From IMG/VR virus record IMGVR_UViG_3300042945_000737, positions 1-23,153 of that record: 23,153 nt of DNA. The stretch is one strand, 5' to 3'. This document shows, in pieces, positions 1,821-18,639 of this stretch (within the stretch, counting starts at the first letter, position 1; every line of letters starts with the position of its first letter). Both the position numbers and the translations under genes were made by a program. This DNA is from a virus. The notes under the pieces are model-generated. The model saw nothing but the letters and a program-made list of their open reading frames with translations, searched no databases and was not told the DNA's origin.

Positions 1821-1869
1821 CAACAACACCCCGGCGGTTCCTCTACTTCGTCGGGGTGTTGTTGTTTTT
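1821..1869 (+). terminator. Strong intrinsic terminator at the convergent junction
   Basis: A perfect 13-bp stem (1821-1833 with 1852-1864) with an 18-nt loop is followed by TTTTT. It ends the small-gene operon. Its T tract overlaps the stop codon of the opposing SpeD-like gene. On the - strand the stem also lies just past that gene's end but lacks a following T tract, so it is mainly a + strand terminator. Confidence 0.9.
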
Positions 1870-2275
1870 ATTCGCGCACCCGTGGGAACCTGGTGCCTCG
1901 CTTCACGACATTGGTGTGAACAGTCTCGCATCCGAATGTCTGACAGAACGAATCGACAACCGCTGCTACATCAAATGGCAGGCAGCTAAACACATCGACG
2001 AACGCAATGCCAAGAATATCCGGGTCGTCTTCGCAGTGCATCCAGGGATAGGTGTGGATGGAAGCGTGGCTCGTCGTGAGCCCGACGACGCCGGTCACTC
2101 CACTCTCGACCGGGTTGACATTGACGAAGTCATGAACGTAGGGCGGAAATAAGGTCTGCATCTTGATCAGTTCAGGCAGGTCGTACAACCATCGGTAAAC
2201 AAGCTGCATATCTGCCAGCTTCTCTGGATCACATCCGTATGCATCTATCGTGAGATGCGGACCGTACTCGCCCAT
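1868..2275 (-). CDS. speD: S-adenosylmethionine decarboxylase (SpeD)-like protein
   Basis: About 135 residues, the size of small bacterial SpeD proenzymes. These self-cleave before a serine to make a pyruvoyl cofactor and decarboxylate S-adenosylmethionine for polyamine synthesis. The core is clear: GPHLTIDAYGC near the N-terminus, SGVTGVVGL, then TSHASIHTYPW and FVDVFSC. Numbered from the ATG at 2275, Ser69 matches the cleavage serine, His74 the family histidine and Cys98 the family cysteine. Two departures stand out: the usual Glu before the serine is Thr, and about nine extra residues separate His74 from Cys98. The TTG one codon upstream is a possible start, but GGGGGG sits better for the ATG. 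It is the last gene of the late operon, after the holin. Substrate could be S-adenosylmethionine or, as in some viral homologues, an amino acid. Confidence 0.75.
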   Translation of the reverse strand: MGEYGPHLTIDAYGCDPEKLADMQLVYRWLYDLPELIKMQTLFPPYVHDFVNVNPVESGVTGVVGLTTSHASIHTYPWMHCEDDPDILGIAFVDVFSCLPFDVAAVVDSFCQTFGCETVHTNVVKRGTRFPRVRE

Positions 2276-2289
2276 CAACGTACCCCCCG

Positions 2290-2596: not shown

Positions 2597-3046
2597 TTAC
2601 CCCCGTATCACTTTCATCATGTTGCCAGGGATTGGCCGGTAAGTGCCGAGTGCATCCTGGAGCCAACTCGTTACCTGGCCGTTATTCCTGGCGCGTATAT
2701 CGACGTGAACAATATTCTTGGCTGCGTACAGCCCGATGCCGCCAACCTTTGGGTTACGAATCAGCAACTTGGCCACGTTGCACTGGTCGATGAGATCACC
2801 AGGTACGTGGATGTCGGCAGCGATACCGATTGTATGCTGGCTGTTAGGCGCCCCACCGATCTTGGCGTTGTGTTCTTTGGATCGCCAACCAGAGGTTATC
2901 TTGATAGGCTTACCAAGCTCAGCTCGTAGTGGTTCAAGAACCTCAACGCATAGACGGGTGAGGTTCTTGATCTCATTCTTACCTGGCTTGCCAGGATCGT
3001 TTGGAGATATGAATTCACTTAAATCAAAGTTAGGAGATAATTTCAT
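2597..3046 (-). CDS. Endolysin, peptidase M15 family (zinc D-Ala-D-Ala/L-Ala-D-Glu peptidase fold)
   Basis: 149 residues from the ATG at 3046, chosen because GGGAG lies six bases upstream; earlier TTG and ATG codons at 3070 and 3061 have no ribosome site. The M15 signature is complete: ITSGWRS (50-56), then SQHTIGIAAD with zinc ligands His71 and Asp78, and VHVDIR with His114. These peptidases cut peptide cross-links of peptidoglycan. There is no separate wall-binding domain or signal peptide, so release should depend on the holin. The start codon overlaps the stop of the cysteine-rich microgene (ATGA), so translation is probably coupled to it. Confidence 0.88.
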   Translation of the reverse strand: MKLSPNFDLSEFISPNDPGKPGKNEIKNLTRLCVEVLEPLRAELGKPIKITSGWRSKEHNAKIGGAPNSQHTIGIAADIHVPGDLIDQCNVAKLLIRNPKVGGIGLYAAKNIVHVDIRARNNGQVTSWLQDALGTYRPIPGNMMKVIRG

Positions 3047-3108
3047 TTCCGACTCCCGCATACGCAGCAATATTCACATTTGCAGTGAGGGCAAGAACAT
3101 TTGCACAT
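3043..3108 (-). CDS. 21-residue cysteine-rich, probably metal-binding microprotein
   Basis: A tiny frame between the XhlA-like gene and the endolysin. The ATG (3108) has an excellent Shine-Dalgarno, GGGAGGTG, a few bases upstream inside the end of the previous gene. The stop TGA overlaps the endolysin start as ATGA. The product is 21 residues with eight cysteines (2, 4, 6, 9, 11, 14, 15, 17) and one histidine (8), in CxCxC, CxxC, CxC and CC spacings like those of metallothioneins or small zinc knuckles. Lysines and a C-terminal SRK make it basic. It has no signal peptide. Zinc or copper binding is inferred from composition. A link to the zinc endolysin it is coupled to (metal supply, inhibition, timing) is speculation. 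It might instead be a translated leader for endolysin expression. Confidence 0.6.
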   Translation of the reverse strand: MCKCSCPHCKCEYCCVCGSRK

Positions 3109-3109
3109 A

Positions 3110-3391
3110 TTAAACACCTCCCAACTTAGAAGCCATAATTCCAGTGACGGCCGCCCAAGCCGCCAGCCACAGCTTATTCAATATCTGACTGATGACCGAT
3201 TCTTTGGTCATTTCAATTTTGGTAATCCGGGTAGCGAGATCGACAAGCTTTGTATCCTGGCTGCGCTGCCACTCGATCAACCCAACGCGGCTGGTTGATC
3301 CTACAATAGCTTCGTGAATGTCCTTGACGGACTTCTTGAGTTCTTCCCATTCGGTTTTATCCACATCTGTCACCTCCCGTTCATCATGCAT
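3110..3391 (-). CDS. XhlA-like membrane-associated lysis protein
   Basis: 93 residues: a charged helical N-terminal part likely to form a coiled coil (WEELKKSVKDIHEAIV and following) and one C-terminal membrane segment (about 72-90, LWLAAWAAVTGIMASKL) ending in a short tail. This matches the size and layout of XhlA-type proteins found beside holins and endolysins. The ATG at 3391 has GGGGG six bases upstream. A second start is possible: GGGAGGTG lies six bases before an in-frame GTG at 3364, which would give an 84-residue form. Follows the fibre gene by 18 bases and opens the lysis cassette. Confidence 0.65.
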   Translation of the reverse strand: MHDEREVTDVDKTEWEELKKSVKDIHEAIVGSTSRVGLIEWQRSQDTKLVDLATRITKIEMTKESVISQILNKLWLAAWAAVTGIMASKLGGV

Positions 3392-3409: not shown

Positions 3410-5998
3410 TTAGTATTCTGCCGGTACAGCACCGGCCGGGACTGCCAGCGCACCCATAGAAATATTCTTGTAGACGCTATTGCATCGATAATTAACGCCA
3501 TAAATCTGATTTCGACCTTGCGCGAATATAAACTTTGGTGGAGCAACCCATGCAACATCTGAAGCGCCTGCATTTAAGGTATTTGTAACACCATCAATGG
3601 TTAATGATGCTTGCATGACCCTGGCGCCTGCGGCGGTTATATAGTTACGCCATTCAATGCGTATGGTATGGAAGTTTCCGTCATGTATGTTTGTCGTTGT
3701 GCTAGTTGGCAAAACAGCTGTACCCAAAGTAGTTAGGCGTGCGAATCTAACTTGATTTCCAGAAGTTGGTTCCAAATTCCCTCTAAAAACCACTGGATGC
3801 TGTGGTTCAACAGAACTATTACTATATCCACCGAAATATAGCCTGCCTTCTAAGTCTGGCTTGGTAGTTTCGTTATTTCTGATATCGAATTGTACAAATC
3901 CATTCTGCGACATCCAAACAGGCCAGTTTGAATTAACATCAGGAAGTATTGGTGTAGCTTGTGTTTCGGTATATACCTCAGCCAGATCAGGGAGCGGAGC
4001 AGTTGTATCACCACTCCAGGCATGATTAGTTAGCTGAAGTCCGTAAATGTATTGAGTGTTGGCACCGGTACCTTCGATCCTGATTCGACCGACGGTCGTA
4101 CCAGCGGGGATAGAGACAGGTACTGCAAACCTGGTCCAGTTCTCGTAGGTCGTGATCGTAGCAGAGCCGATGCTGCTACCTGATTGATTTACCAATCGAG
4201 CTACTATAGAACTTCTTGCAGCCGCGCTACTGTTACGGACCCACCCTGAAAGCACTACACGGGTAAGTCCAGTAAGCATCTCAGAGTTGATGATTGTCTG
4301 TTCCATGTAGTCACCAGATGCAGCGAATACGATCTGGGTGGCGGTCAATGGAGTGATGTCAGGTCCAGCAACGCTGGTGGAACTGATCGTGCATCCTGGG
4401 TCCAGATACCAAAGACCTGGAGTACCTTGAGTCGTAGTCTGCTTCAGGAAGTTGTTGCTGTAGGCCAGATAGTTGTGAGGGTTGTCCAGGTAGACAGTAT
4501 CCATGCCTCGGACGCTATTCGTTGTAGAAGCGAATGTTGGACTAGGGATATAGCTTGAGCGATAGCTTAATTGTTCAAGTTGCGAACCCCATATATCAAT
4601 GGAGTTTCCAATTACCAATGCAACACCAATAGTTACACGCAAAGTTTGCGCGGAAGCAACAGAGGCAGGCGTAGTAACGCTAAATCGCTGCCACGATGTA
4701 GTCAGAGTAAAATTAGTAGAAACGAGACTGGCAGGAGTGGTGTTGTTTGTAATATCAAGATTTAGCGTGGTTCCTGCGAGAGCAGACCTAGCAAATATGC
4801 TAAATGTCCACTTACCTGATGATGTAGTGGTGTAATCCTGGTAAATGCCACCCAATAATGCCGTGCTAGTTATTCTATCTGCTGTAAGCGTATTAGTAGG
4901 CGAGCTAGCAGCATTTGCAACGATAGTGGCATTGTTCAATGTCCAATAGGTTGCGTTATCGTGATCTTCAGAAGCACGAAGAACATTTGTGCTGTCTGAT
5001 TCAACGATAACACCGGAGTTTGCAGAAACGAAGTTATCGATAGTTCCCTGACGCACCTCATCCGGTGATCTAAATCTTTGGCTACTGGTGCTGGTTGTGC
5101 TGGTGGTGTAATAACCTCTAGTAGACCTGGAAGTAGTAAGCACAGGCCAGAGGTCCGGGCCACTAGGATTCGAGTAGCGCCAGTTAGTTCCATAACAACT
5201 GATGTGGATTGTAGAGCCAGTGACATAGGCGCCGCTGGCTTCCTCTACTCGGAGGTAGTTATCTCCAGGAGCAAGGGCCAGCCTATCGAATTCGGTGATG
5301 TATGCCACACCGTTTGCATTGGGTGTTACGGAGATCCTGCGGGAAGACTGACCTGACTGGGCCACGACACGGACATAGAACCTGGTCGTGCGAACAGCAG
5401 CAGATGTGGTGATGCTGCATACCAGGTAGGTAGGAAGATCGCCGGGGTTGTTGATCAGGAATGGAACGCTAGCGATTGTGGAAGTGCTGGCACGCTCCAG
5501 AGCAGGGGTGTCATATCGAAAACGAGCAAACCCACCTGGGTTGATTGCACTACGATAAGATTGAATCCACGCACCCTCGCTAGGCGTTAGATCGAAGTTG
5601 TAACCGAGCAGCTTGCCATGGCTCTTGAACTTGGTAATCTCAGGGGCGCCAGGAAACCCACGATAGTAGGAATTGCCGAGCTGCACTCGAGAATAGATAC
5701 CGGGCTTACCAAGTCGGGCATAAACCTTGCGGAACCACTCCATCATTTCCTTCTGGCCAGTGGTGACGGACACGCTAGACGCTATCGCGTATAGATAGCC
5801 AGGAAAGGTTAGTGACCTACTAGGCGTATTAACCCAGTTAGGGGTGAGCATGACAGGTCCACCGAAGGTGTCCACAACGGACCCCACACCGGCACCCGCA
5901 GGATTCTGCATTCCCTGCTCGTCTATCCAAATAAATTTCGTATGAACTCCGTCGTCAAGATTAATCTCACCGACTATTGGCCCGAAAGGTTTAGCCAT
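3410..5998 (-). CDS. Tail fibre / receptor-binding protein with carbohydrate-binding modules
   Basis: 862 residues from the ATG at 5998, preceded by GGAGG at five bases; an upstream in-frame GTG (6016) would leave almost no leader from promoter P6. The N-terminal ~290 residues are probably the tail-attachment part. Two related beta-rich modules follow: about 338-490 (LRASEDHDNATYW, then SWQRFSVT, then IWGSQLEQLSYRSSYIP) and about 505-665 (YLAYSNNFLKQ, then ENWTRFAVP, then YIYGLQLTNHAW). This arrangement is common in phage fibres that bind sugars. The C-terminal ~165 residues look like a LamG/concanavalin fold (GNFHTIRIEW, ASLTIDG). A serine/threonine-rich linker lies near 290-310. Probable role: host surface recognition. 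Confidence 0.75.
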   Translation of the reverse strand: MAKPFGPIVGEINLDDGVHTKFIWIDEQGMQNPAGAGVGSVVDTFGGPVMLTPNWVNTPSRSLTFPGYLYAIASSVSVTTGQKEMMEWFRKVYARLGKPGIYSRVQLGNSYYRGFPGAPEITKFKSHGKLLGYNFDLTPSEGAWIQSYRSAINPGGFARFRYDTPALERASTSTIASVPFLINNPGDLPTYLVCSITTSAAVRTTRFYVRVVAQSGQSSRRISVTPNANGVAYITEFDRLALAPGDNYLRVEEASGAYVTGSTIHISCYGTNWRYSNPSGPDLWPVLTTSRSTRGYYTTSTTSTSSQRFRSPDEVRQGTIDNFVSANSGVIVESDSTNVLRASEDHDNATYWTLNNATIVANAASSPTNTLTADRITSTALLGGIYQDYTTTSSGKWTFSIFARSALAGTTLNLDITNNTTPASLVSTNFTLTTSWQRFSVTTPASVASAQTLRVTIGVALVIGNSIDIWGSQLEQLSYRSSYIPSPTFASTTNSVRGMDTVYLDNPHNYLAYSNNFLKQTTTQGTPGLWYLDPGCTISSTSVAGPDITPLTATQIVFAASGDYMEQTIINSEMLTGLTRVVLSGWVRNSSAAARSSIVARLVNQSGSSIGSATITTYENWTRFAVPVSIPAGTTVGRIRIEGTGANTQYIYGLQLTNHAWSGDTTAPLPDLAEVYTETQATPILPDVNSNWPVWMSQNGFVQFDIRNNETTKPDLEGRLYFGGYSNSSVEPQHPVVFRGNLEPTSGNQVRFARLTTLGTAVLPTSTTTNIHDGNFHTIRIEWRNYITAAGARVMQASLTIDGVTNTLNAGASDVAWVAPPKFIFAQGRNQIYGVNYRCNSVYKNISMGALAVPAGAVPAEY

Positions 5999-6028
5999 TT
6001 CATCCTCCGTGGACACATCCTAATAAAT

Positions 6029-12467: not shown

Positions 12468-12920
12468 CTAAACGACTTCAAAGACGCCGCTTGTCTCGAG
12501 TGTGATGCTGAAGGCCGCCAGGCCATCAACCGTATTGGAGCGCTCGAACGAGGCAACACGAGCACCGTTAGCAGTGCTGGGAGAGCCCGTGCTGTACCCG
12601 CTGTTACGCCAGGTACGGGTAGTGCTGGTGCCAAACTGAATCGCCCAGTTGACCAGCTCACCGTTGTTAAGTGCAGTTTCAAGCTGGTAGTCGATACCGC
12701 TGGTAGCGCCGACCACGTCGTCATACATACCGCTGATAGTCACGGAACCAGAGCGAAGACCGGGCTGGTAATCTCGGACCTGGTCACCGGCGACGGTGGT
12801 CTCGATCATGTCGGAAGAAAAGGACAGAGATACGTTGTTGACATATCCAGTCAAGGTGACCGTCACAGGTCCGGGTCGGACGACTGTAACGACAATATCT
12901 GAACCACGAATGAAAGCCAT
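12468..12920 (-). CDS. Tail tube protein paralogue C
   Basis: 150 residues; start ATG with AGGTGGG upstream. Begins MAFIRG and contains GYVNNVS, a (V)xGDxV segment and TISGMYD in the same order as its two upstream neighbours, and ends DGLAAFSITLETSGVFEV, close to the end of the tube domain in paralogue A. The pattern fits siphovirus tail tube proteins, which polymerise as rings around the tape measure. It lies directly before the chaperone genes, the usual place for the tube protein, so it or paralogue B may be the main tube subunit. Confidence 0.75.
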   Translation of the reverse strand: MAFIRGSDIVVTVVRPGPVTVTLTGYVNNVSLSFSSDMIETTVAGDQVRDYQPGLRSGSVTISGMYDDVVGATSGIDYQLETALNNGELVNWAIQFGTSTTRTWRNSGYSTGSPSTANGARVASFERSNTVDGLAAFSITLETSGVFEVV

Positions 12921-12938
12921 TTTATTAGCCCACCTTTC

Positions 12939-13340
12939 CTACGAGATCGTGGGGGCAACGATAGCTTGCAGGGTGCAGCTATATGCCACCAGGTTGTCGG
13001 TCACTGCGGTAAGTTCGTAGGAAGAAACACGAACACCGGAAGTCCAGGTAAGAGTACGGTTGGCTGCGCCCTGGTAGACGATGACAAGCGTTGCAGCCGT
13101 GTCGTTGATGAGCATAGCGCTGATGACGGTATCGGGTGTGTTGGATGCGCCAGTGTCGAAGAAACCGCTGAAATCAATCGTGCCACCACGAAGGTTCTGC
13201 TGCTTCTCAACGAAGGTGTCAGACAGCACCGAGATATCGATGAGCTGGCCGTCACGGGATACGCTGAAGTTATTGACGAAGTTGGTAAGGGCGACACCAT
13301 TCAGCGTGAATGTAGCCCTGGAACCGCGAATGAAAGCCAT
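12939..13340 (-). CDS. Tail tube protein paralogue B
   Basis: 133 residues; start ATG with AGGAGGT upstream, the strongest ribosome site of the three. Begins MAFIRGS, followed by LTNFVNNFS, ISVLSDTF and DFSGFFD, then a C-terminal strand region (DNLVAYSCTLQAIV). It is the shortest of the three paralogues, lacking both the insert of C and the extra domains of A. It may be the tube subunit or a specialised ring at the tail tip or neck; the sequence does not say which. Confidence 0.7.
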   Translation of the reverse strand: MAFIRGSRATFTLNGVALTNFVNNFSVSRDGQLIDISVLSDTFVEKQQNLRGGTIDFSGFFDTGASNTPDTVISAMLINDTAATLVIVYQGAANRTLTWTSGVRVSSYELTAVTDNLVAYSCTLQAIVAPTIS

Positions 13341-13362
13341 TTAATATACCTCCTAATTCCCG

Positions 13363-14559
13363 TTAATTCCGGGCATACATGATACTGAGGGTTACGCCAC
13401 CACCCATCGCAGTGATGGAGAAGGCCCTGACATACCTGTTAACGGTTCCGGTTGTCTTCACTGTTTCAGCAGTGTTGACAGTTGCGGATGTAACAGTAGT
13501 GGAGAATGTTCCCAGTGTGACAATGCTAGTGGCAAAGTTGTCTGTGGAGTGCTCAACCCTGAATGTGGCTGATCCTGCCCCGACTGCACTCACTACATTG
13601 AGCTTCAGTTCTGCTCCGCTGCTCGTTGCTGCGCCATTGTCGTGTACTGTACCAAGTGCTCCGGTAGAAACAGTTGTTCCGCTAAACAGAAGAACTGCTG
13701 CCCTACCGAGGCGAGCCGCAGCGATTGCAACAGTCTGGTTGCCGGTCATGGTCGCTACCTGGTAAGCACGAAGGTATCGGTAGACTGCGTCAGCCCAGTG
13801 AAGTCCTGTCTCAAGCGACTGTCCGAACGGGCCAGTAGTTGTGGTGACGTTATCGAAGGTTCCAAGCGTAAACCAGTTGGTATTGTCGTGAGAATGCTCG
13901 ACACGGAATGTACCGGTAGTGCCAGTTCCAGACAGCGAGCAATGGAAGTTCAGAAGCGCTGGTCCGAAGGTAGGCACCGAGTTATCGTGTGTAGTACCGA
14001 TTGCAGCACCGGTGCTTGAATAAACAGCCAGAGGAGCGAGTACGAATCCTCGTCCAAAACCAGCACTCTGGGTAGTAGCCTTGGCGCCTACGGATGACAC
14101 CTCGAACGCACCACCGCTCTCGAAGTTAGCGGAGAAGCTGATAAGCTCCCCAACCGTGTCTCCGACGTCGTAGGTAGCCTGGAGGATGGTTCCGAGGAAG
14201 CAGGGGTTACCGGCAGTATTGCCGCCCCACATGAGCGTTAAAGGAGCATATCCAGGTGTTGATTGAAGCGTGCTAGTAAGGGCCATCAAACCGGCAGGGC
14301 CGGAGGAGACGCGGTCAGACATAGCATCGTCAGATCCTGAGCCCTGCACTTGAGCAATATATGAAGTCTCATCGAAGAATCCGCTGATGGTAGCGTTAGC
14401 TGTCTTGCTGCCTGCCTGGATATATTGCCTGAGCGTATCGCCGAACACGGTGTCATCTACAAGCCCAGCGTCCATATTGACTGAAACATTGTTTGTGTAC
14501 GAAGTAAGGTTATGCGCCCCGGCGAGGACGAATGTACTTCCACCACGAATGAATGGCAT
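13363..14559 (-). CDS. Tail tube protein paralogue A with two extra C-terminal domains
   Basis: 398 residues. Residues 1-155 match the tube domain of the two downstream genes: MPFIRG, LTSYTNNVS, VFGDT, ISGFFD and a final ISFSANFESGGAFEV. Two tandem copies of a ~110-residue beta domain follow (about 177-286 and 287-398), sharing GTxHDN, FRVEHS-DN, TLGTF and RY(L/V)RAF/Y. Such surface domains on tube proteins in other phages project from the tail and can bind cells or sugars; here that is inference. Start overlaps the previous stop (TAATG), with GAGGAGGTG upstream. Confidence 0.75.
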   Translation of the reverse strand: MPFIRGGSTFVLAGAHNLTSYTNNVSVNMDAGLVDDTVFGDTLRQYIQAGSKTANATISGFFDETSYIAQVQGSGSDDAMSDRVSSGPAGLMALTSTLQSTPGYAPLTLMWGGNTAGNPCFLGTILQATYDVGDTVGELISFSANFESGGAFEVSSVGAKATTQSAGFGRGFVLAPLAVYSSTGAAIGTTHDNSVPTFGPALLNFHCSLSGTGTTGTFRVEHSHDNTNWFTLGTFDNVTTTTGPFGQSLETGLHWADAVYRYLRAYQVATMTGNQTVAIAAARLGRAAVLLFSGTTVSTGALGTVHDNGAATSSGAELKLNVVSAVGAGSATFRVEHSTDNFATSIVTLGTFSTTVTSATVNTAETVKTTGTVNRYVRAFSITAMGGGVTLSIMYARN

Positions 14560-14912
14560 TATTGCACCTCCTCATCGGCAACATCTAGCCCTTCGGGAAC
14601 GGCTTCAGCCGCTAGCCCTTCGGGAACGGCTTCAGCCGCTAGCCCTTCGGGAACGGCTTCAGCCGCTAGCCCTTCGGGAACGGCTTCAGCCGCTAGTTCC
14701 AGATCTGGTGCCTGGTCTTCAAACACTTCTTCAAGGGACATATCACCGGCTGGATCTGTATCAACATCTACTTCTACTTCGATAATTCCACCGCCGATGT
14801 AATCCTTGAAGATATGCTCAAGTGCCACCGGCACCAGTTCTCCAGGCCCGCCAACCCAACCACTTGGGATATGCTGGGCATTGTGAACCACTGCAAGACG
14901 AACTTCTTTCAT
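14559..14912 (-). CDS. Acidic tail-region protein with four 9-residue repeats
   Basis: 117 residues; ATG with GGGGGT upstream that includes the previous stop. The N-terminal ~45 residues (VRLAVVHNAQHIP, GWVGGPGELVP, LEHIFKDYIG) look like a small folded domain. The rest is strongly acidic (EVEVDVDTDPAG, EEVFEDQAPD) and carries four exact copies of a 9-residue unit, EGLAAEAVP in one register, then ends DEEVQ. It lies between the tail terminator and the tube genes, so it probably belongs to the neck or tail, but I do not recognise a family. Confidence 0.7.
   Translation of the reverse strand: MKEVRLAVVHNAQHIPSGWVGGPGELVPVALEHIFKDYIGGGIIEVEVDVDTDPAGDMSLEEVFEDQAPDLELAAEAVPEGLAAEAVPEGLAAEAVPEGLAAEAVPEGLDVADEEVQ
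14587..14694. repeat. Four perfect tandem copies of a 27-bp unit
   Basis: Units at 14587-14613, 14614-14640, 14641-14667 and 14668-14694 are identical at the base level. The length is a multiple of three, so copy number can change without breaking the acidic protein. Perfect identity suggests recent expansion by slippage. Confidence 0.95.
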
Positions 14913-17283: not shown

Positions 17284-18639
17284 TTAGACGGTGATGTTGT
17301 ACAGGACAGCAGCGCCCTCGAGACCGCTGGCAGCGCCGGTAGCGCTGTAACGTCCGAGGCCGAGGCGGAAGGAAGCAACGAGGCGAGCCTGCTGCATACC
17401 GGGCATACGCTCGAGTTCGAGAGTAACGCCACGCTTCATACCGACCTTGAAGGCGTTGCGGTTGAAGGCGATGAGCTGACCCTTGGTGTTGTTGGCAGGA
17501 GTTGCGCTGATCTTACCGTCAGCTTCGGTGAGGCCCATGGCCATCGTGCTGATGATGGGCGAACCGAGGATGTTGCCGATCTGCCCGTTGAGAACACCGG
17601 CCTGGGGACCGAACTTATCGACGGTGACGACCTGGTCGAGCTGGGCAATCTTGTCGGCGGTCTGAGGATCGCAGACATAGATGATGTCGCTAGAGCGAAC
17701 AGGGTGACCCCAGTCGATGAGGTTGGCCTTGTCCATCATGAGGCCGCGAAGACCAGCGATACCGGCGAGGCTGATAGCGCCACCCATGCTGGTAGCATTG
17801 GCAGTGTTGTCAACGAGGCCGAGCTTGCGGAGACCGTCGAAGGCGAGGAAGTACTTGGTATCAGCGGGGTCGGCATCGTCGCTGTTGATGTTGCCGGTAG
17901 CAGCGTTGGTGGTGTCACCGTTGAGGATGACAGCGTCGCTGTAGAAGGCGAGCGAAGCAGCGATCTGCGAACGGACGAAAGGCAGGAAGGGGATGATGGC
18001 GTCTTCTTCGAGTTCGTAGGTCCAGATCTGGTTGATGAGCATCTTCTTGGCAGCAACGAGAACGCGGTTAGAACCGACGCGACCGGTACCGGAAAGGAAG
18101 CTGTTCTCGGTGGTGTTCTCGCCGAGGAACTGGGGCTCTGGGAGATCAGCAACGACGGGCAGGTAAGCCTGCTGATTCAGCATCTCGAAGCTATCGAGAA
18201 GACCGAACACGCGGCTGTCCTGGCGAGCAGCATCCCAGAGTTCGCCGACGTACTGAACGCCGATGAGTTCCTGACCGTAGCCAGCAGCGGCTTCGTTCTG
18301 GGTAGCCTTGCGGTAGGGGATAGCATCAACCTTGCTGTTGTTGATGAAGTTCTTGGAGACATGCTGGAAAGCATTCTCAAGCTCTTCAGAAGGGCCACCC
18401 TTGGTGGACTTCATGATGCCGTGAAGGATCTGGACATCGGCGCTGGTGAGGCCGCTGAACTTGGAACCCTTGGTGTTAGCATCGCCCTGGAACTTGATCT
18501 TGCGAGCAACATCAATACCAGTGTTTTCCTTGGTAGCGCGAAGCTCCTTCTCAATGGCATCGAGACGGCTGGAGACATCGCCGGGCATCTGGTTAACCTT
18601 GGCTGCAAGTTCGCCGAGCAGCTCATTCATTTCTGACAT
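17284..18639 (-). CDS. Major capsid protein, HK97 fold
   Basis: 451 residues; ATG with GGAGG upstream. The N-terminal ~45 residues are helical and likely coiled coil (MNELLGELAAKVNQMPGDVS, RLDAIEKELRATKEN), the scaffolding delta domain normally removed by the prohead protease. The rest has HK97 capsid features: LGENTTENSFLSGTGRVGS, LVAAKKMLINQIWTYELEED, FVRSQIAASLAFYSDAVILNGD and a final strand region (VTLELERMPGMQQARLVASFR). Codon use is unusually biased to C/G-ending codons, with no TTA, CTA or TCA at all, as expected for a very highly expressed gene. Confidence 0.92.
   Translation of the reverse strand: MSEMNELLGELAAKVNQMPGDVSSRLDAIEKELRATKENTGIDVARKIKFQGDANTKGSKFSGLTSADVQILHGIMKSTKGGPSEELENAFQHVSKNFINNSKVDAIPYRKATQNEAAAGYGQELIGVQYVGELWDAARQDSRVFGLLDSFEMLNQQAYLPVVADLPEPQFLGENTTENSFLSGTGRVGSNRVLVAAKKMLINQIWTYELEEDAIIPFLPFVRSQIAASLAFYSDAVILNGDTTNAATGNINSDDADPADTKYFLAFDGLRKLGLVDNTANATSMGGAISLAGIAGLRGLMMDKANLIDWGHPVRSSDIIYVCDPQTADKIAQLDQVVTVDKFGPQAGVLNGQIGNILGSPIISTMAMGLTEADGKISATPANNTKGQLIAFNRNAFKVGMKRGVTLELERMPGMQQARLVASFRLGLGRYSATGAASGLEGAAVLYNITV

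Follow-up and report, generated by a model that had tools for sequence, protein, structure and literature searches.

A micro-ORF of 21 codons in the lysis cassette of a tailed phage is almost certainly a genuine, conserved microprotein gene, as judged from two genomes, and its product, in which eight residues are cysteine, is probably a thiolate metal binder. In the window (the whole stretch of DNA analysed, a virus record of 23,153 bases from an uncultured tailed phage) the minus strand carries the structural genes, terminase first and tail last, and the lysis cassette follows them. After an 868-residue tail-type gene, the minus-strand order is a 93-residue XhlA-like gene, the micro-ORF, an M15_3 endolysin and a 101-residue candidate holin. 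The features are listed below, with identities to L082, a related contig introduced further on.

3410..6016, minus strand: tail/adhesin-type protein of 868 aa, directly upstream of the lysis cassette; 74% identical in L082
3115..3122, minus strand: Shine-Dalgarno of the micro-ORF, GGGAGGTG, read directly within the last codons of the upstream gene
3110..3391, minus strand: cassette gene of 93 aa with XhlA-like layout (polar N-terminus, hydrophobic C-terminal segment); 62% identical in L082
3043..3108, minus strand: Cys-rich micro-ORF of 21 aa, translated as MCKCSCPHCKCEYCCVCGSRK and then stop; conserved in L082 with mostly synonymous change (81% identical)
2597..3046, minus strand: Peptidase M15_3 endolysin (Pfam PF08291, E=1.3e-21; PHROG endolysin, E=7e-35); 54% identical in L082
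2290..2595, minus strand: hydrophobic protein of 101 aa, candidate holin; 34% identical in L082

Translation of 3043-3108 on the minus strand gave the 21-residue frame of the original prediction, with Cys at positions 2, 4, 6, 9, 11, 14, 15 and 17 and a His at position 8. Potential ligands therefore make up 9 of the 21 residues (43%), and cysteine alone 8 of 21 (38%). The spacing, C-x-C-x-C-x2-C-x-C-x2-CC-x-C, can be laid out as a CxCxC run and a CxxC-x4-CxxC core (C-x-C-x-C-P-H-C-x-C-x2-C-C-x-C-G). A cysteine content this extreme is not expected by chance: when the window was resampled 200 times under a dinucleotide-Markov model, ORFs 15-40 aa long in which Cys made up 36% or more arose at 0.005 per window-length.

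The strong Shine-Dalgarno and the stop/start overlap that had been claimed for this frame were both read directly. The start is preceded by AAGTTGGGAGGTGTTTAAT-ATG, with GGGAGG ending eight bases ahead of the ATG, and GGGAGGTG is a good Shine-Dalgarno that lies in the last codons of the 93-residue gene, which ends at 3110. At the other end, the micro-ORF stop TGA overlaps the ATG of the M15 gene (ATGA, 3043-3046), and the Shine-Dalgarno of the M15 gene itself (GCGGGAG) is embedded in micro-ORF codons 17-19. Because of this overlap and the embedded site, endolysin translation is likely to be partly coupled to the micro-ORF, which is compatible with every reading considered below. The frame lies below gene-calling limits and would be missed by ordinary gene finders; phage operons would thus harbour, in the spaces between their larger genes, functional genes of about 20 codons.

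When the viral contig collection was searched with a degenerate pattern for micro-ORF codons 1 to 11, a single contig matched, IMGVR_UViG_3300042453_003902 (L082). Its gene order is that of the window (866-aa tail protein, 85-aa XhlA-like protein, micro-ORF, 161-aa M15 ORF, 99-aa candidate holin), and the micro-ORF, MCKCSCPHCKCANCCVCGAKK followed by a stop, sits at the identical junction. Since the codon pattern had fixed the first half of the peptide, the search was repeated free of the peptide, with alignments of the tail protein and the XhlA-like protein. The tail-protein alignment recovered the same contig and two others (L183 and L184) that end inside the tail gene; both records are cut off before the junction and contain no M15 gene. 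The XhlA-like alignment matched L082 only. The micro-ORF is present in both of the two available genomes of the lineage that span the junction. In these two diverged genomes it fills the gap between the flanking genes to the base, and the packing is tight in each, with a 1-nt gap or a TGATG overlap upstream and the ATGA overlap downstream.

Comparison of the two genomes points to selection on the peptide. In the micro-ORF, 22 of 66 bases differ, with 4, 4 and 14 differences at codon positions 1, 2 and 3, and 11 of the 15 changed codons are synonymous. Codon meaning was kept in 18 of 22 codons (stop included), compared with 8.9±1.5 when the observed substitutions were placed at random, and none of the 20,000 trials reached 18. 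The other five frames across the micro-ORF gave 6-14 matches, and the better ones were broken by stops. All eight cysteines are kept in L082, together with His8, Pro7, Lys3, Lys10, Lys21 and Gly18; 9 of the 13 non-Cys residues are unchanged, and the second half of the peptide, free of the search pattern, retains C14, C15, V16, C17, G18 and K21. Part of the reason why Gly18 is kept may be that its codon belongs to the M15 Shine-Dalgarno. Identity is higher in the micro-ORF than anywhere else in the cassette, including the endolysin that it precedes, and the synonymous sites of its neighbours are near saturation. Besides the micro-ORF, the only short ORFs of equal length common to both genomes are shadows or ends of conserved long genes.

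Taken together, the preserved codon meaning, the top identity in the cassette, the status of sole shared intergenic short ORF and the tight packing make it very probable, within the two genomes compared, that the micro-ORF is translated and that purifying selection maintains it. Conservation of the frame and its cysteines in relatives, on which the original prediction was staked, is borne out by L082. A chance open frame between two genes, with no gene there at all, would fit the very short length of the micro-ORF and the fact that it is known from sequence alone; this reading is already contradicted by the purifying selection on the peptide in diverged L082 and by the lack of any other intergenic short ORF common to both genomes, and we regard it as very improbable.

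The capsid protein (17284-18639, minus strand) was unmatched among 50,697 named phage records, so that collection contains no cultured relative of the lineage, and a capsid search of about 800 bacterial genomes found nothing. Among named phages, the micro-ORF and the 93-residue gene were unmatched as DNA or peptide and the tail protein gave one weak partial match; a plasmid search gave no match. The label XhlA-like for the upstream gene holds for its layout and not at the level of profiles, as no XhlA profile in Pfam or PHROGs matched it. The candidate holin matched no family in the same two collections.

That the peptide binds metal through its thiolates is suggested by its composition and its conservation. 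The micro-ORF product has the sequence features expected of metallothioneins: small size, Cys richness, CxC/CxxC/CC arrangement and few aromatic or hydrophobic residues (Met1, Pro7, Val16 and Tyr13, the last replaced by Asn in L082). With bacterial metallothioneins (SmtA/BmtA/PmtA, PF02069) it would share the setting of the bacterial cytoplasm and the combination of Cys and His ligands. Bacterial metallothioneins are much longer than 21 residues, and the micro-ORF product is set apart from them by its far shorter chain and by the lack of a match to profile PF02069 at E<=10 in Pfam and NCBIfam, searches that are insensitive for 21 aa. SmtA has a zinc-finger fold (PMC10612145). More generally, metallothioneins are defined chemically by thiolate chains rich in CxC (PMC4755600; PMC10612145).

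The fungal copper metallothioneins of the Neurospora crassa / Agaricus bisporus type, with 26 residues and 7 Cys, were once held to be the shortest (PMC4755600). Like them, the micro-ORF product has minimal length, Cys at about a quarter or more of the chain, CxC units and small or Lys spacers. It differs in having 21 residues and 8 Cys, in its His and Tyr/Asn and in its place in a phage lysis operon; the fungal spacing CxCx5CxCx3CxCx2C is also distinct from CxCxCx2CxCx2CCxC, and a relationship is neither shown nor claimed. If the assignment is right, a natural metallothionein-like protein would exist that is shorter than the 26-residue fungal ones (PMC4755600) and comes from a phage. No phage or viral metallothionein was found in the literature searched. 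The peptide had no match at E<=10 in Pfam, PHROG, NCBIfam or PDB, with tools that are weak for 21 residues of biased composition, and Rfam gave no match. We propose that a 21-residue cytoplasmic microprotein is translated between the XhlA-like gene and the M15 gene, its stop being coupled to the start of the latter, as a minimal metallothionein-like peptide built from the CxCxC stretch and the CPHC-x4-CCVCG core. Its eight thiolates, to which His8 may be added as a ligand, would most likely bind a metal ion of soft or borderline character, either Zn(II) or Cu(I).

The zinc knuckle that had been offered as the other identity does not agree with the sequence. The retroviral-type motif CX2CX4HX4C was rejected, as it calls for a His where, after C6-x2-C9, the peptide has Cys14, and the only His of the peptide is His8. 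A related alternative is a small folded domain of the zinc or iron-sulphur type, which would serve to bind a partner protein of the host or of the lysis system and not to handle metal as such. The stretch C6-x2-C9-x4-C14-x2-C17-G resembles half a zinc ribbon, Pro, His and Gly are conserved within the CPHC...CCVCG spacing, and a longer zinc-ribbon-like ORF in L231 contains the identical string CxxCxCxxCCxCG. However, 21 residues with almost no hydrophobic ones among them offer little for a fold or an interface, four extra cysteines are left unexplained, and the peptide matched no family in Pfam, PHROG or NCBIfam. We consider such a domain improbable.

Scans with the cysteine patterns yielded many look-alikes. 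The N-terminal pattern matched 25 times in viral sequences and 75 times in genomes, and the C-terminal pattern matched at least 120 stretches. The matches listed comprise 228 positions; longer ORFs enclose 210 of these, and the remaining 18 are mostly simple repeats. One candidate that resembled a homologue (L085, MCTCVCPVCKCPYCQ and stop) was rejected since it is antisense inside a 244-aa gene, and another (L093) because it is antisense to a coding gene. Separately, a frame with eight Cys, MCDCECENCECENCDCE and stop, is present on an unrelated viral contig (L091, 9006-9059, minus strand), where it overlaps the start of a terminase-like ORF. One further match, on a T7-like cyanophage contig, lies away from any lysin:

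L263, 1384-1452, plus strand: MTTTCTCSNCTCSCCCNCGCKN and stop, with nine Cys, in a 93-base gap between the RNA polymerase and SSB genes

This ORF has the same CxCxxCxCxxCCxCG spacing as the micro-ORF, which was mostly demanded by the search pattern itself. Seven named cyanophages have RNA polymerase and SSB genes that abut, without the 93-base gap of L263, and the blastn look-alikes of L263 in named phages were low-complexity matches within larger genes. The L263 ORF is a lead and not support, because it is one sequence without a clear Shine-Dalgarno, picked from the 228 positions (18 of them outside long ORFs). A genuine gene there would point to a role in metal handling that is not tied to lysis.

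Such a role would be that of a microprotein, made late, that buffers metal or redox state and has no connection with the endolysin, the lysis operon being for it a convenient and strongly expressed slot; the peptide would then keep free metal away from virion assembly or handle the zinc or copper of the host. We hold this to be unlikely but a serious competitor. The other M15 endolysins inspected (29 loci) lack the micro-ORF, and the L263 ORF has the same spacing and lies between RNA polymerase and SSB genes. On the other hand, the micro-ORF stands directly before the M15 gene, with overlapping codons, in both genomes that span the junction, and L263 is a single sequence among many motif matches that may be due to chance.

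The downstream gene is a zinc endolysin, as had been supposed. It combines the PF08291 match with the ligand pattern HxxxxxxD...H; its His and Asp align with H154 and D161 of PDB 1LBU, which we take to be zinc ligands, the third His lies in IVHVD, and all three are kept in L082. The micro-ORF thus precedes one of the M15 zinc peptidase endolysins (PF08291), while the others examined have no Cys-rich micro-ORF upstream: at 29 loci with M15 homologues in other phages, other neighbours were found there. Many of these loci are about as similar to the M15 of the window as is that of L082. M15 enzymes therefore do not generally need the micro-ORF. A short Cys-rich frame between XhlA-like and M15 genes, which the original prediction proposed to look for in related genomes, was found in L082; no Cys-rich frame precedes M15 at these 29 loci.

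On balance we favour the combined reading in which the micro-ORF is a genuine late phage gene whose product would bind metal and serve the M15 enzyme with zinc. The leading guess is zinc buffering or supply during late expression, while the coupled zinc enzyme is made in bulk. Service to the endolysin is the speculative part: given metal binding, it is a guess from position that we rate as somewhat doubtful. Accordingly, the proposed role as lysis accessory for a zinc peptidase agrees with the position of the gene and less well with the other M15 genes that lack it and with the L263 look-alike away from a lysin. The strongest form of the proposal, a first phage metallothionein-like microprotein in a lysis operon that holds or delivers zinc so that M15 is metallated, or inactive until lysis, we consider quite unlikely; in that case a natural metallothionein of exceptional shortness would control, through metal, when lysis occurs. 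The micro-ORF offers a concrete and cheap test of phage metal supply for zinc endolysins.

The suggestion that the frame is only a translated leader has become less likely. As a regulatory leader, passage or stalling of the ribosome on eight Cys codons would gate translation of the endolysin. A Cys-rich ORF coupled to the next gene has the arrangement for this, and in the window a 13-bp helix can form between the micro-ORF Shine-Dalgarno (3115-3127) and M15 codons 3-7 (3027-3039; z=-2.5). A 7-bp helix in the same register is possible in L082, with two pairs changed on both sides relative to the window. The pairing probability of the helix core is near 1 in the window but about 0.16 in L082, where the helix is minor in the ensemble. 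Furthermore, by energy the helix was no better than synonymous recoding allows (0.06 in the window, 0.22 in L082), and a hairpin inside the micro-ORF was no stronger than in synonymous recodings.

The mycobacterial polycysteine leaderless uORFs, as described in PMC13236596 after Canestrari et al. 2020, act via their Cys codons and regulate genes of Cys biosynthesis. The micro-ORF resembles them, as far as that account describes them, in being a short ORF, rich in Cys, that precedes another gene and is linked to it. It differs from that description in being internal to an operon, in having its own Shine-Dalgarno and conserved non-Cys residues, and in preceding an endolysin (PMC13236596). Constraint confined to the Cys codons, as expected of a Cys-responsive leader or attenuator, was not seen: 9 of the 13 non-Cys residues are also kept, none of which codon sensing needs, the Cys codons are spread without a run, and the downstream gene does not belong to Cys metabolism. 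With these conserved residues and an RNA structure within the synonymous nulls, a Cys-codon sensor or pure leader appears less likely than a functional peptide, and we would give it little credence.

Three observations elsewhere in the window concern other genes. Just downstream of the lysis cassette (1868-2278, minus strand) lies a homologue of S-adenosylmethionine decarboxylase (PF02675, E=3.4e-22), an unusual phage cargo that is unmatched in the record of L082. A 117-aa ORF at 14559-14912 (minus strand) contains a perfect nine-residue tandem repeat, AAEAVPEGL, in about four copies. Finally, three neighbouring ORFs of 150, 133 and 398 aa (12468-14559, minus strand) cross-match their counterparts in L082 and are probably tandem paralogous tail-type genes.
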